A DNA stretch of 64,000 nt, from contig NZ_KB892438.1 of the NCBI RefSeq assembly GCF_000373805.1, positions 1 to 64,000 of the forward strand, written 5' to 3'. Position numbers and translations under genes: made by a program. The stretch comes from Corynebacterium pilosum DSM 20521 = CIP 103422. GTDB taxonomy: Bacteria; Actinomycetota; Actinomycetes; Mycobacteriales; Mycobacteriaceae. How positions within the stretch are numbered: position 1 is the first letter of the stretch; each line of letters begins with the position of its first letter. The notes beneath the pieces were generated by a model. It worked only from the letters and a program-made list of their open reading frames with translations, was not told the DNA's origin and searched no databases. Positions 57,710 to 62,930 of the stretch are shown one piece after another.

Positions 57710-59974
57710 TTAGCGGCCAAATCCAGCCTGGCGCAGCGCGTCCGCCATGCTGCCGGACTGAGACTGTTGTTTCTTCTTGCCGCGCTTCTGCTCCTTGGCC
57801 TTGCGCTTCGGCTTGTTGCTCGCGCCGGGTTCGTCGTCGAGGCGCAGACTGAGTCCGATGCGCTGGCGCTCCACGTCCACATCCATGACCTTGACTTTCA
57901 CCACTTCGCCGGAACGGACCACGTCGTGCGGATCCTCCACGAACTTGTGGCTCATCGCCGACACGTGCACCAAACCGTCCTGGTGAACGCCCACGTCTAC
58001 GAAGGCGCCGAACGCGGCCACGTTCGTCACGGTGCCCTCCAGGATCATGCCCGGGGTCAAGTCAGAAACCTTGTTTACGCCTTCTTTGAAGGTGGCCGTC
58101 TTGAACTCGGGGCGTGGGTCGCGGCCCGGCTTGTCCAGCTCGGCGATGATATCGGTCACCGTGGGAACGCCGAACGTGTCGTCAGCAAAGTCCGCCGGCT
58201 TCAGCTTCTCCAACACGCGTGTGTTCCCGATCAACTCATCGACAGCCAGCCCGGTACTCTGCGCGATCTTTTCGACGACAGGATACGCCTCTGGGTGCAC
58301 CGCCGACGCATCCAAAGGCTGGTCGCCACCATTGATGCGCAGGAAGCCGGCACACTGCTCAAAAGCCTTCGGGCCCAAGCGCGGCACCTTGCCCAGTTCC
58401 TTACGGGTGGCAAAAACACCATTGTCGTCGCGGTAGGCCACGATATTTTTCGCCACGGTGTTAGAGATGCCTGCCACGCGTTCCAGAAGCGGCACGGACG
58501 CCGTGTTCAGGTCCACGCCGACGGCGTTCACCGCGTCTTCCACCACGTCATCCAAGGTCTTCGCTAGGGCCGTCTGGTTCACATCGTGCTGGTACTGCCC
58601 CACTCCGATCGATTTGGGGTCCACCTTCACCAGCTCCGCCAGCGGGTCCTGCAGGCGACGCGCGATGGAAACGGCCGAGCGCAACGAGACATCCATGTCC
58701 GGGAATTCCTTCGCCGCGATCTCACTGGCCGAGTACACCGACGCACCCGATTCACTAACGACGACCGGCGTCGGCCTTGTGCCACCCGCCTTCTCGATCA
58801 GGTCAGCGACTTCCCCGGCAAGCTTTTCAGACTCGCGGCTGGCCGTGCCATTACCCACGGCGATCAGCTCCACGCCGTGCGTGGCCACCAGGGTGGACAG
58901 CTGCTGTACAGCCTGGCTCCACTGGTTCTGAGGCTGGTGCGGATAGACGATCGCGGTATCCATCACCTTGCCGGTCTCGTCTACCACCGCGCACTTCACA
59001 CCGTTGCGGTAGCCCGGGTCCAGCGCCAACGTGGAACGCTGACCGGCCGGTGCCGCGAGCAGGACGTCGCGCAGGTTGGTGGCGAAGATGTCTAGCGCCC
59101 CCTCCTCCGCCTTTTCCTTCAGGCGCATCCGCACATCCAGACCGGAGGAGACCAGCAGTTTGGTCCGCCAGCCCCAACGCACCGCGTTGGCCAACCACGT
59201 CGAGGTCTTCGTGTCTAGGTCGAAGCGGTCCGCGATCTTTGCCTCATAGGTGGCGTCCTCCCCCGGATCCAGGTTGAGGTTCAGCACGCCCTCCTTCTCC
59301 CCTCGCAGCAACGCCAGGATGCGGTGGGACGGCAGGGAGGTGAAGTCCTCATTGAAGTCGAAGTAGTCCTTAAACTTCGCACCTTCCTGTTCCTTGCCCT
59401 CGACCACGCTGGCACGCATGGTACCGGTGGAGTACATTTCCTCGCGGACCTCGCCGACCAGGTCCGCATCGAGTGCGAAGCGGTCGATCAAGATGGCGCG
59501 GGCACCCTCCAGCACGGCCTTCGTGTCGGCGAAGCCCTCGGTCACATACTCCTGGGCCAGGGCCTCAGGATCAGCGGAGGGATCGTCGATAAGCGAATCC
59601 GTGAGCGGCTCGATGCCGGCCTCGCGAGCGATGTCCGCCTTCGTCTTGCGGCGCTTCTTGTAGGGCAGGTAGAGGTCCTCAAGGCGGGCCTTCGTATCGG
59701 TGGCCTCGATCAGCGCGCGCAACTCGTCGGTGAGTTTGCCCTGCTCATCGATCGCCTCGATGATCGCTTCCTTGCGCTCGGCCAGTTCGACGAGGTAGGT
59801 GTTGCGTTCCTCGATGTGGCGCAGCTGGGCGTCATCCAGCCCGCCGGTGGCTTCCTTGCGGTAGCGGGAGATGAACGGGACCGTGTTGCCTTCGGCAAGT
59901 AGGGTCAGCGCGGCATCAACCTGTGACTGCTTAATGCCAAGTTCTTCTGCAATAGTGCGGGCGATAAATGTCAT
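57710..59974 (-). CDS. tex: Tex family RNA-binding transcription accessory protein
   Basis: 754 residues, multi-domain nucleic-acid-binding protein. Helical N-terminus (about 1-320; PFISRYRKEATGGLD), YqgF/RNase-H-like domain (about 325-450; LALDPGYRNGVKCAVVD), helix-hairpin-helix (about 490-560; VGVDLNTASVPLLERVAGI), and S1 domain (about 640-715; GMILEGTVTNVAAFGAFVDVGVHQDGLVH in blocks). The Lys-rich tail (KRKAKEQKRGKKKQQ) probably adds RNA binding. Its role in actinobacteria is not settled. Confidence 0.93.
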   Translation of the reverse strand: MTFIARTIAEELGIKQSQVDAALTLLAEGNTVPFISRYRKEATGGLDDAQLRHIEERNTYLVELAERKEAIIEAIDEQGKLTDELRALIEATDTKARLEDLYLPYKKRRKTKADIAREAGIEPLTDSLIDDPSADPEALAQEYVTEGFADTKAVLEGARAILIDRFALDADLVGEVREEMYSTGTMRASVVEGKEQEGAKFKDYFDFNEDFTSLPSHRILALLRGEKEGVLNLNLDPGEDATYEAKIADRFDLDTKTSTWLANAVRWGWRTKLLVSSGLDVRMRLKEKAEEGALDIFATNLRDVLLAAPAGQRSTLALDPGYRNGVKCAVVDETGKVMDTAIVYPHQPQNQWSQAVQQLSTLVATHGVELIAVGNGTASRESEKLAGEVADLIEKAGGTRPTPVVVSESGASVYSASEIAAKEFPDMDVSLRSAVSIARRLQDPLAELVKVDPKSIGVGQYQHDVNQTALAKTLDDVVEDAVNAVGVDLNTASVPLLERVAGISNTVAKNIVAYRDDNGVFATRKELGKVPRLGPKAFEQCAGFLRINGGDQPLDASAVHPEAYPVVEKIAQSTGLAVDELIGNTRVLEKLKPADFADDTFGVPTVTDIIAELDKPGRDPRPEFKTATFKEGVNKVSDLTPGMILEGTVTNVAAFGAFVDVGVHQDGLVHVSAMSHKFVEDPHDVVRSGEVVKVKVMDVDVERQRIGLSLRLDDEPGASNKPKRKAKEQKRGKKKQQSQSGSMADALRQAGFGR

Positions 59975-59991: not shown

Positions 59992-61197
59992 CTAGTCCTT
60001 GTGGTTCCACGCACACGCAGCGGTCACGCCGGGCTCCTTGTAGCCCTCGTCGGTGGTGCCATACCAGTAGGTGCCGGCGGGAAGGGCGGCGACGACAGCC
60101 TTCGTGGCATCGCGCAGGTCCAGCGCGCTGCGCCCGTTGACCACCACGCGGTACAGCGCCTCCGCCACCGGCACGTGCCCCTCGGCCTGTTCGAACTGGC
60201 AGACCAGCATGTTGTCCGGTTCGCAGGTTAAATCCACCAGATCTGTATTAATGTCATAGGGCTCAAAACCGGCCTTGCGCAGCTTCTTCGGCATCTTTTT
60301 CGCGGAGCGTTCCCACTCCGTCGGGGTGATCAGCACGTTCAGGTCGGTCGCAATATCGCGTGCATGCAAAGTAAACAGGTCCTCCTCGGTCAGGGTGTTC
60401 TCGTCGATAAGTTCAGGCCGTACGCGCTGGGTCCGCAAGAGCGACTGGTCGCGGCGCCACCGCTCGACCTTGGCGTGGTTGCCGCTGAGCAGCACCTCGG
60501 GCGCCTCGATCCCGCGCCACACGCGCGGCTTGGTGTAGGACGGCCCCTCCAGCAGCCCGTCGGAGAAGCTGTCCTCCTCGTGGCTGGCCGCGTTACCCAG
60601 TACGCCGGGGATCAGGCGGGTCACCGCCTCCGCGATCACCAGCGCGGCCACTTCCCCGCCGATCAGCACATAATCGCCGATGGAGACCTCGCGCACGCGG
60701 TAGCGCTTCTCCGCATCCTCGAACACGCGCTGGTCGATGCCCTCGTAGCGGCCACATGCGATCACGATATGTTCCTCGCGCGACCACGCCTGCGCGTCCG
60801 CCTGGGTAAAAGGTTTACCCGCGGGGGTGGGCACCAGCAGCAGCGGCTTGGAGCGGTCCTCGCCCGTGTCGGCGTAGGGCCGCGGTGCCTTACCCAGCAG
60901 TTCGTCGTGACGCAGCTGGTCCGCGCGGTGTTCGCTTGCCGACGATAGCTCGTACCCCACCCGGCCGTCCGCCACGTCGTCGAGCGCCGGACCCCACACC
61001 TCTGGTTTCATCACCATGCCGGGACCGCCGCCGAGCGGCGTGTCGTCGACGGACTTGTGGCGATCGGTTGCCCAGTCCCGCAAATTGTGAACGCCGATCT
61101 CGATGATGCCGTCCTCGATCGCCTTGCCCAGCAGGGCATGCCTTAAAGGTTCGAGGTAGTCGGGAAAGATGGTGATGATATCGAGTCGCTGAGCCAT
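59992..61197 (-). CDS. trmD: tRNA (guanine-N1)-methyltransferase with long C-terminal extension
   Basis: 401 residues. The TrmD knot is complete: DIITIFPDYLEPLRHALLGKA, NLRDWATDRHKSVDDTPLGGGPGMVMKPE in blocks, CGRYEGIDQRV and SIGDYVLIGGEVAALV, followed by the C-terminal tRNA-binding helices through TLTEEDLFTLHARD (about 280). It methylates G37 of tRNA. TrmD is normally 230-275 residues; here about 125 extra residues follow, with ITPTEWERSAKKMPKKLRK, LTCEPDNMLVCQFEQAEGH and AALPAGTYWYGTTDEGYKEP. I do not recognise that segment. ATG 61197 has AAAGGTGA upstream. Confidence 0.93.
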   Translation of the reverse strand: MAQRLDIITIFPDYLEPLRHALLGKAIEDGIIEIGVHNLRDWATDRHKSVDDTPLGGGPGMVMKPEVWGPALDDVADGRVGYELSSASEHRADQLRHDELLGKAPRPYADTGEDRSKPLLLVPTPAGKPFTQADAQAWSREEHIVIACGRYEGIDQRVFEDAEKRYRVREVSIGDYVLIGGEVAALVIAEAVTRLIPGVLGNAASHEEDSFSDGLLEGPSYTKPRVWRGIEAPEVLLSGNHAKVERWRRDQSLLRTQRVRPELIDENTLTEEDLFTLHARDIATDLNVLITPTEWERSAKKMPKKLRKAGFEPYDINTDLVDLTCEPDNMLVCQFEQAEGHVPVAEALYRVVVNGRSALDLRDATKAVVAALPAGTYWYGTTDEGYKEPGVTAACAWNHKD

Positions 61198-61228: not shown

Positions 61229-61837
61229 ATGCCGAAGTTGAATCGTCTCTTGATCGTCGCCGCCACCGCCGCCCTCCTCACGGCGTGTGGCTCCGGCGCC
61301 GAATCTGCCGCCCCCAGCCCGACTGCTGCACCAGAGGTTCTGCAAAATGACCTCCCCAGCGAGTCCCCTGCACCTGAGATGGCACCAGAGACGACCGGCA
61401 ACCGCCAAGAGGATCTGACCGCAGGCACGGATAAGGATGCGTGCATCGCATCGAACCTCGACGTGACGCTGGCGAACGAAGAAGGCTCCGCCGGCTCCCG
61501 CGCCTTAGAGCTTGAATTCACCAACACGGGTGACACGTGCGAAATGATTGGTTTCCCCACGGTCACCGTGGTCGGCGACGGCACCGGCCGCCAGATCGGC
61601 GCGACCGCTTCCCGCGAGCCCGTCTCCACCGACTACGTCACTTTGAAGAAGGGCGATTCCGCCACGAGCACCGTGACCGTTGCCGAATCCGACGCCGCCA
61701 CCTGCAACCCCACCGACGCCGACGGCCTACGCGTGTTCCCACCAGCCAACACGAACTCCATCTATGTGCCCGTGCCTGGCCTCGAGGGTTGCGATAACCC
61801 AGACTTGTCCACGCTGACGGTGGGCCCAGTTCTCTAG
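61229..61837 (+). CDS. DUF4232 family lipoprotein
   Basis: 202 residues. Signal with lipobox LTAC (Cys20), then a Pro/Ser/Glu-rich linker (to about 68), and a DUF4232 beta-sandwich domain with two disulfide-type Cys (about 73, 108) and PGLEGCDNPDLSTL at the end. Such lipoproteins are common in actinobacteria; function unknown. It overlaps rimM tail to tail. Confidence 0.82.
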   Translation: MPKLNRLLIVAATAALLTACGSGAESAAPSPTAAPEVLQNDLPSESPAPEMAPETTGNRQEDLTAGTDKDACIASNLDVTLANEEGSAGSRALELEFTNTGDTCEMIGFPTVTVVGDGTGRQIGATASREPVSTDYVTLKKGDSATSTVTVAESDAATCNPTDADGLRVFPPANTNSIYVPVPGLEGCDNPDLSTLTVGPVL

Positions 61838-62411: not shown

Positions 62412-62924
62412 TTACCGGTTGAAAACGTCAGGCTTATCGACGAAATCCCAGACGAACTGGATCACCGATTCGCGGTAAGGCAAAAAGTGGCCGGCGCGCA
62501 TAAGATCGATCACCTCGTCGTCACGCGCCCACCGCACCTCCGCCACTTCGCGGTTCGGAACGGCTAGCGCACTCGCATCCACCTCGTGGCGCAGCACATA
62601 CACATCGTCGAAGCCGTGGGCATAGTTCGCCGTGAAAGCGGGCCGGCCAAGCTCCAACTCAAGGCCAAGTTCCTCCCTGGTTTCGCGCTGCATCGCCTCC
62701 CGCGACGTCTCGCCGGCCATGGCGGAGCCGCCCACGGTCACGTCCCACAAGCTGGGCCACAAGGTCTTCTCGTCGGCACGCCGCTGGACCAACAGGCGGT
62801 CCTGGGCATCGAAAAGACACAACGTGACCACTAGGTGAAACTCGCCCGGCCCATGTTCCGTGCCGGTCTCGACGATTTTTCCGGTCCGAATACGGTTCTC
62901 GTCGTAAATGTCCCAGTGCTCCAT
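62412..62924 (-). CDS. Nudix hydrolase (YfcD/IPP-isomerase-like)
   Basis: 170 residues. Starts MEHWDIYDENRIRTGK, a common start in YfcD-like Nudix proteins. The Nudix box is complete: G-x5-E-x7-RETREELGL (about 75-97). The substrate is not predicted. I place the start at 62924 because TATTTT lies exactly 7 nt upstream, and the ATG six bases earlier lies only 1 nt past it. The T-run of the rpsP terminator supplies that box. The gene ends with a dispersed-motif copy. Confidence 0.82.
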   Translation of the reverse strand: MEHWDIYDENRIRTGKIVETGTEHGPGEFHLVVTLCLFDAQDRLLVQRRADEKTLWPSLWDVTVGGSAMAGETSREAMQRETREELGLELELGRPAFTANYAHGFDDVYVLRHEVDASALAVPNREVAEVRWARDDEVIDLMRAGHFLPYRESVIQFVWDFVDKPDVFNR

Positions 62925-62930
62925 GGGCAT

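Follow-up and report, generated by a model that had tools for sequence, protein, structure and literature searches.

A Corynebacterium-restricted domain, fused to TrmD in some genomes and separately encoded in others, with a basic first helix in most fused copies

The TrmD protein of Corynebacterium pilosum DSM 20521 ends in a real extra domain and not in a chance open frame, and profile searches showed this domain to belong to an unannotated protein family that, at the sensitivity used, is restricted to Corynebacterium. The domain is fused to TrmD in some genomes and encoded as a separate gene in others, usually directly behind trmD, and the basic first helix of most fused copies is newly found here. 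We tentatively read it as an accessory domain that, once fused, may help TrmD to grip tRNA, a reading that we hold at somewhat less than even confidence. The DNA analyzed, hereafter the window, was a stretch of 64,000 nucleotides (positions 1 to 64,000 of contig NZ_KB892438.1).

In the window, trmD occupies 59992..61197 on the minus strand (401 codons plus a TAG stop) and encodes a TrmD core, residues 1 to 279, followed by the extra domain, residues 280 to 401 (59995..60360, minus strand). The original prediction held that neither a stop codon nor a frameshift lies between the two; the frame list and the translation bore this out, with the frame open from 61197 to the TAG at 59992-59994, and the three sequence blocks it had named, among them LVCQFEQAEGH, are all found in the 401-residue product. 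Judged by its family matches, the core is an ordinary TrmD and presumably an m1G37 methyltransferase, passing the curated cut-offs of NCBIfam NF000648 (311 bits, cut-off 220) and TIGR00088 (242 bits, cut-off 195) and matching Pfam PF01746 with 208 bits. Both catalytic residues have a counterpart (E. coli and H. influenzae numbering): D209 aligns to D169, and R194, identical in the E. coli alignment, stands at Arg154, since the block is gap-free to I196, which is I156 in E. coli. According to two abstracts (PMC12751012, PMC7641325), TrmD is essential in various bacteria and serves as a drug target.

Matches to known TrmD proteins ended at residues 264 and 271 (NCBIfam) or between 256 and 288 (27 PDB sequences), so more than 110 C-terminal residues are extra, and the proposed extension of about 125 residues is confirmed at about 122. 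Compared with the TrmD families (NF000648, TIGR00088 and PF01746), the window protein adds these ~122 residues and, relative to E. coli TrmD, an insert of ~29 residues at about 80 to 108 (60874-60960); matches from other genera of the family likewise break at about 76 to 118. The tail is not a chance frame, since 137 of 201 Corynebacterium genomes, the window's own included, encode a match to the domain (E ≤ 0.01) and since its dN/dS is low. Approximate NG86 values, with dS near saturation, were 0.05 to 0.18 for the tail in all six pairs among four members, the window protein plus the three fused relatives closest to it, and 0.05 to 0.11 for the core in the five of six pairs that could be computed.

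The tail had further been claimed to be an ordered but unrecognized fused domain, with structure prediction proposed as a check, and both parts of this claim stood. AlphaFold2, run on a tail alignment of 26 members (A2), gave a pLDDT of 88 and a pTM of 0.80, and together with the family alignments it predicted a ferredoxin-like strand-helix-strand-helix-strand-helix-strand order, that is, the ferredoxin-like arrangement plus one additional helix. The predicted elements were strands at 6-16, 37-47, 73-83 and 103-110 and helices at 18-34, 56-65 and 87-96, in a model numbering that equals P0001 numbers minus 274. When the full-length protein was modeled with AlphaFold2, the helix that ends TrmD (271-278) was followed at once by the first strand of the domain (280-290), suggesting that the domain proper begins at about residue 280 and is joined to TrmD without a flexible linker; with a pTM of 0.57, this model does not fix the position of the domain relative to the core.

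Searches for a named family gave no significant match. The window tail alone had no Pfam match at E ≤ 10 and a best NCBIfam E-value of 0.12, which is meaningless; none of the 26 A2 tails matched at E ≤ 0.001 (best values 0.034 for Pfam, 0.021 for NCBIfam and 0.0048 for PHROG), and the A2 profile had no significant match among PDB sequences. Foldseek with the tail model returned nothing at E ≤ 0.001. VIA-align, with a best Z of 8.2, placed bS6-type, MgtC C-terminal, NikR-C, PII and other chains close, with the families tied. These domains have the general fold arrangement in common with the tail model, at 2 to 18% identity in the aligned rows and with no significant sequence match, and Z values up to 8.2 may reflect merely a common fold; among the fold families listed, none could be named for the tail.

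Three motifs were traced through the family alignments. The Cys of CEPDN (residues 325 to 329; 60211..60225, minus strand) was present in 34/34 fused and 47/51 separate copies, while in YWYGT (residues 377 to 381; 60055..60069, minus strand) the Trp was found in 34/34 and 49/51 and the Gly in all copies of both kinds (34/34 and 51/51). The C-terminal CAW motif (residues 395 to 397; 60007..60015, minus strand) is present in the window and occurs in only 13 of the 34 fused copies, the other 21 being without it; among the 20 full fused rows of the main clade, just four (the window, G141, G085 and G088) retain its Cys.

As for distribution, the tail is not general to TrmD, and matches were found only in Corynebacterium, fused in some genomes and separate in others. 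A family-wide profile search of 301 genomes from 31 genera gave 15 matches, all of them in Corynebacterium and none in the 30 other sampled genera; a phylum-wide search of 296 genomes returned the window's own genome as the single match; and 27 contig loci with a domain match all belonged to Corynebacterium. A divergent ancestor at the trmD loci of other genera was sought in 27 loci (L213-L239, ~1500 bases on each side), and none was found at E ≤ 1. Since some eroded congeners, G120 and G041 among them, escaped the profile in the family-wide search, very divergent relatives may still exist elsewhere. Reuse of the domain in open reading frames of 543 to 689 residues in four genomes was considered and rejected; these proteins (L074-L077) are membrane-protein-like, and their similarity to the domain is confined to a short FEQAEGH-like stretch.

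We examined 121 trmD regions, the window's own and those of 120 congeners, the domain search covering the trmD strand. Genomes with a TrmD match numbered 200; 126 regions were prepared from a part of the matches listed, and 120 of these were retrieved. An iterated profile found the domain in 99 of them. The domain was fused in 34 regions, fused but eroded in 13, a separate gene in 57 and absent from 17; the fused state, eroded copies included, thus accounts for 47/121, with 13/47 eroded, and three eroded rows (G020, G058 and G117), which had no profile match, were classed by the length and sequence of their TrmD. The 13 eroded and 17 absent cases show that the domain is dispensable. A standalone version, the existence of which the original prediction had raised for checking, is present within the genus. 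The regions held 55 separate copies, of which 48 start, as given by the profile, -16 to +127 nucleotides from the trmD stop and the remaining 7 at 586 to 877 nucleotides from it, while in G008 and G171, which are counted among the 57, the copy lies away from trmD. In G184, G187, G019 and G011, trmD and the separate gene share one frame with a single in-frame TAG between them, among the matches listed, which shows how a fusion could arise.

Several loci were irregular. Separate copies away from trmD were located at 4191-4589 of L245 and 3827-4201 of L246, the latter followed by a gene that we take to encode an FtsY-like protein. The separate copies of C. oculi (L069) and C. lowii (L070) look truncated or frameshifted, and the domain match of G082 falls in two pieces. 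In C. pacaense (L048, 3088-4258), trmD apparently falls into two frames that overlap and contain a repeated stretch; either the assembly is at fault, or the gene is broken or duplicated in part.

Downstream of trmD in the window, 17 bases beyond its stop, lies tex (57710..59974, minus strand), identified by its Pfam Tex domains. Its start was assumed to be the ATG at 59974, with Tex_N beginning four residues in; the earliest start codon of the frame is a GTG at 60016. The order with tex behind trmD, or behind the separate gene, recurs in many relatives, and five genomes with a fused TrmD (G070, G113, G034, G161 and G148) had no Tex match at E ≤ 1e-50. On the other side of trmD, a gene at 61229-61837 on the plus strand encodes a DUF4232 protein whose signal resembles that of a lipoprotein; it stands antisense between the minus-strand rimM and trmD, and its end overlaps that of rimM by a few bases. 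A NUDIX-domain gene (62412-62930, minus strand) lies just upstream of rimM, before a frame that is presumably ribosomal S16-like.

In the TrmD-core tree, the window fell into a clade of 33 rows with a support of 98, all of them fused (20 full, 13 eroded), and 9 changes were counted for fused rows, eroded ones included, against the rest. A rooted TrmD+Tex tree (104 rows, two outgroup genomes), built without the long-branch rows G083, G166, G131 and G183 and without rows lacking Tex, gave 8 changes between the fused and separate states. Our own reading is fusion followed by repeated erosion, with change counts that cannot tell fusions from splits.

The clearest difference between fused and separate copies lay in helix 1 (residues 292 to 308; 60274..60324, minus strand; TEWERSAKKMPKKLRKA in the window), located on the AlphaFold2 models and identified as basic in a charge comparison. 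Of the 99 regions in which the tail was matched, this comparison covered 85, omitting 10 eroded copies and the short separate matches G031, G082, G112 and G174. The mean net charge of helix 1 was +4.18 in fused copies (n=34) and -1.65 in separate copies (n=51), and 28 of the 34 fused copies reached +3 or more, compared to none of the 51 separate copies, all of which stayed at or below +1. Six fused copies were not strongly basic (G197, +2; G118, 0; G083, G023 and G166, -1; G047, -2), and the fused domain as a whole is slightly acidic, with a median net charge of -2.5. Helix 2 came second, with a shift of about one unit in the opposite direction (-1.68 in fused and -0.63 in separate copies). 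Among the 13 eroded tails, 12 matched a basic-helix pattern that we wrote ourselves, with net charges of +1 to +7.

In sister contrasts of fused and separate rows, helix 1 was more basic on the fused side in 6/6 cases, while the other eight elements went both ways; this contrast is post hoc, helix 1 having been singled out after the pooled comparison. It drew on 15 fused rows out of the 20 in the main clade, omitted G168 (whose sister is without the domain) as well as G083 and G166 (absent from the tree), and placed G183 from a separate analysis. An independent-pairs test of fusion against the basic helix on the TrmD+Tex tree gave five starred pairs, with means of 3.2 going the same way, 0.0 the opposite way and 1.8 showing no difference; at a median p of 0.25 it was underpowered, as were the other such tests, with one or two starred pairs each. 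In one pairs test, when the threshold was at its loosest (+1), a few of the 200 random pairings opposed the reading. Helix 1 is not explained by proteins becoming more basic in general, given that the whole TrmD core showed no significant charge difference (p 0.08) and that Tex is more acidic in fused species. TrmD segments 91-120 and 181-210 also differ in charge (for 181-210, -3.8 in fused species compared to -2.2), and shared ancestry explains part of the correlations between fusion and charge.

A second difference concerned the interdomain linker of TrmD, which, according to passages in two papers, becomes a helix over the G37 pocket when tRNA binds (PMC5372744, PMC9508554). Residues 203 and 204 (AA in the window; 60586..60591, minus strand) directly follow VLGN and align with E. 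coli 163-164, just before E. coli S165 and D169. Among TrmDs with a separate gene, 47 of 57 have a doubly basic pair here (RR or KR); the corresponding counts were 4/34 for fused, 0/13 for eroded and 7/17 for domain-free TrmDs. When adjacent pairs of the TrmD core were ranked by correlation with helix 1 charge, 204-205 and 203-204 came first and second (rho -0.70 and -0.69), with residues 90-91 nearly as correlated (rho +0.64). The correlation was weak within fused rows (rho -0.37, p 0.03), and within separate rows there was none (rho -0.04). The separate-gene TrmDs without a doubly basic pair numbered 10 of 57, and the 8 that were scored have no basic helix, reaching +1 at most. Pair loss against the basic helix, tested on a Tex-only tree with four starred pairs, went the same way in 0.8, the opposite way in 0.1 and showed no difference in 3.1; being mostly without difference, the test barely supports compensation. 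The coupling of pair and helix is thus a lead, and one that shared ancestry could explain.

That the domain acts together with tRNA methylation, as originally suggested, is plausible from its neighborhood, its repeated fusion and the basic helix of the fused copies, and the positive charge of this helix suggests that the domain may help to hold tRNA. The mechanism we propose starts from a family so far found in Corynebacterium alone and often encoded right behind trmD, which has been joined to the TrmD C-terminus in several lineages, the window's included. In the model no flexible linker separates it from the C-terminal domain of TrmD. In unfused TrmD the basic linker pair may contribute to phosphate binding, and a part of this role would pass to basic helix 1 (MPKKLRKAG), lying on the tRNA backbone. 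We infer the tRNA contact, the placement of helix 1 on it, the offset of the lost linker charge and any effect on m1G37. Against the accessory reading counts that 20 of the 34 fused rows belong to one clade. It seems doubtful that an orphan protein born within the genus was recruited several times independently into this essential and universally conserved methyltransferase, gaining the basic helix in most fused lineages as the basic pair of the linker closing on G37 was lost, in a convergent transfer of part of the tRNA clamp from the enzyme to a new domain.

The separate protein could instead have a job independent of TrmD, with fusion a neutral loss of the stop codon between neighbors and the passenger decaying thereafter. 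The single TAG between in-frame genes in the four genomes named above, among the matches listed, the copies away from trmD in G008 and G171, the 13/47 eroded tails and the 21/34 others without CAW are all in keeping with such a passenger, which we nevertheless hold to be on the unlikely side. Low dN/dS values for the tail in the window's group speak against it, as do the 6/6 contrasts in which the fused side has the more basic helix 1 and the eroded tails, most of which retain a basic helix.

Alternatively, the basic helix might dock on an acidic TrmD surface or across the dimer, so that the domain would stabilize the enzyme without contacting RNA. The more acidic segment 181-210 of fused species (-3.8 compared to -2.2) and the modeled junction without a flexible linker speak for docking, but the changed pair sits in the linker that closes on tRNA and the full-length model shows no confident docking, leaving this a rather unlikely account. 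A small-molecule sensor of the ACT or PII kind, tuning TrmD activity, would fit the PII, MgtC-C and NikR-C chains among the fold neighbors and the conserved CEPDN and YWYGT motifs; it is improbable, with nothing from Foldseek at E ≤ 0.001, a best Z of 8.2 that is typical of a common fold and no sequence link to ACT/PII-type families. An untranslated or mis-joined tail, for which we found no supporting point, is hardly conceivable given the in-frame conservation in relatives and the low dN/dS.

Fusions of TrmD are already known, and it is the second domain that sets the Corynebacterium fusion apart. PDB entry 8b1n (436 residues) is, we assume, an example of the TrmD-Tm1570 fusion. Such proteins (PF01746-PF09936) join two SPOUT domains, as stated in passages of two papers (PMC1829167, PMC11187310). 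The Corynebacterium protein is like TrmD-Tm1570 in having its second domain at the TrmD C-terminus; unlike the knotted SPOUT domain of the latter, this one is small and predicted to be ferredoxin-like, and PF09936 was found neither in the whole protein or its tail (Pfam, E ≤ 10) nor in any of the 26 tails. Among open-licence PMC papers, we found no description of the corynebacterial TrmD extension.

With the accessory domain read as a tentative aid to tRNA binding, the findings offer an initial clue to a protein family without annotation, encoded by 137 of the 201 sampled genomes of the genus. A genus in which TrmD has gained a lineage-specific domain more than once, remodeled it and let it erode would amount to a natural experiment on how substrate grip changes in an otherwise fixed tRNA enzyme.
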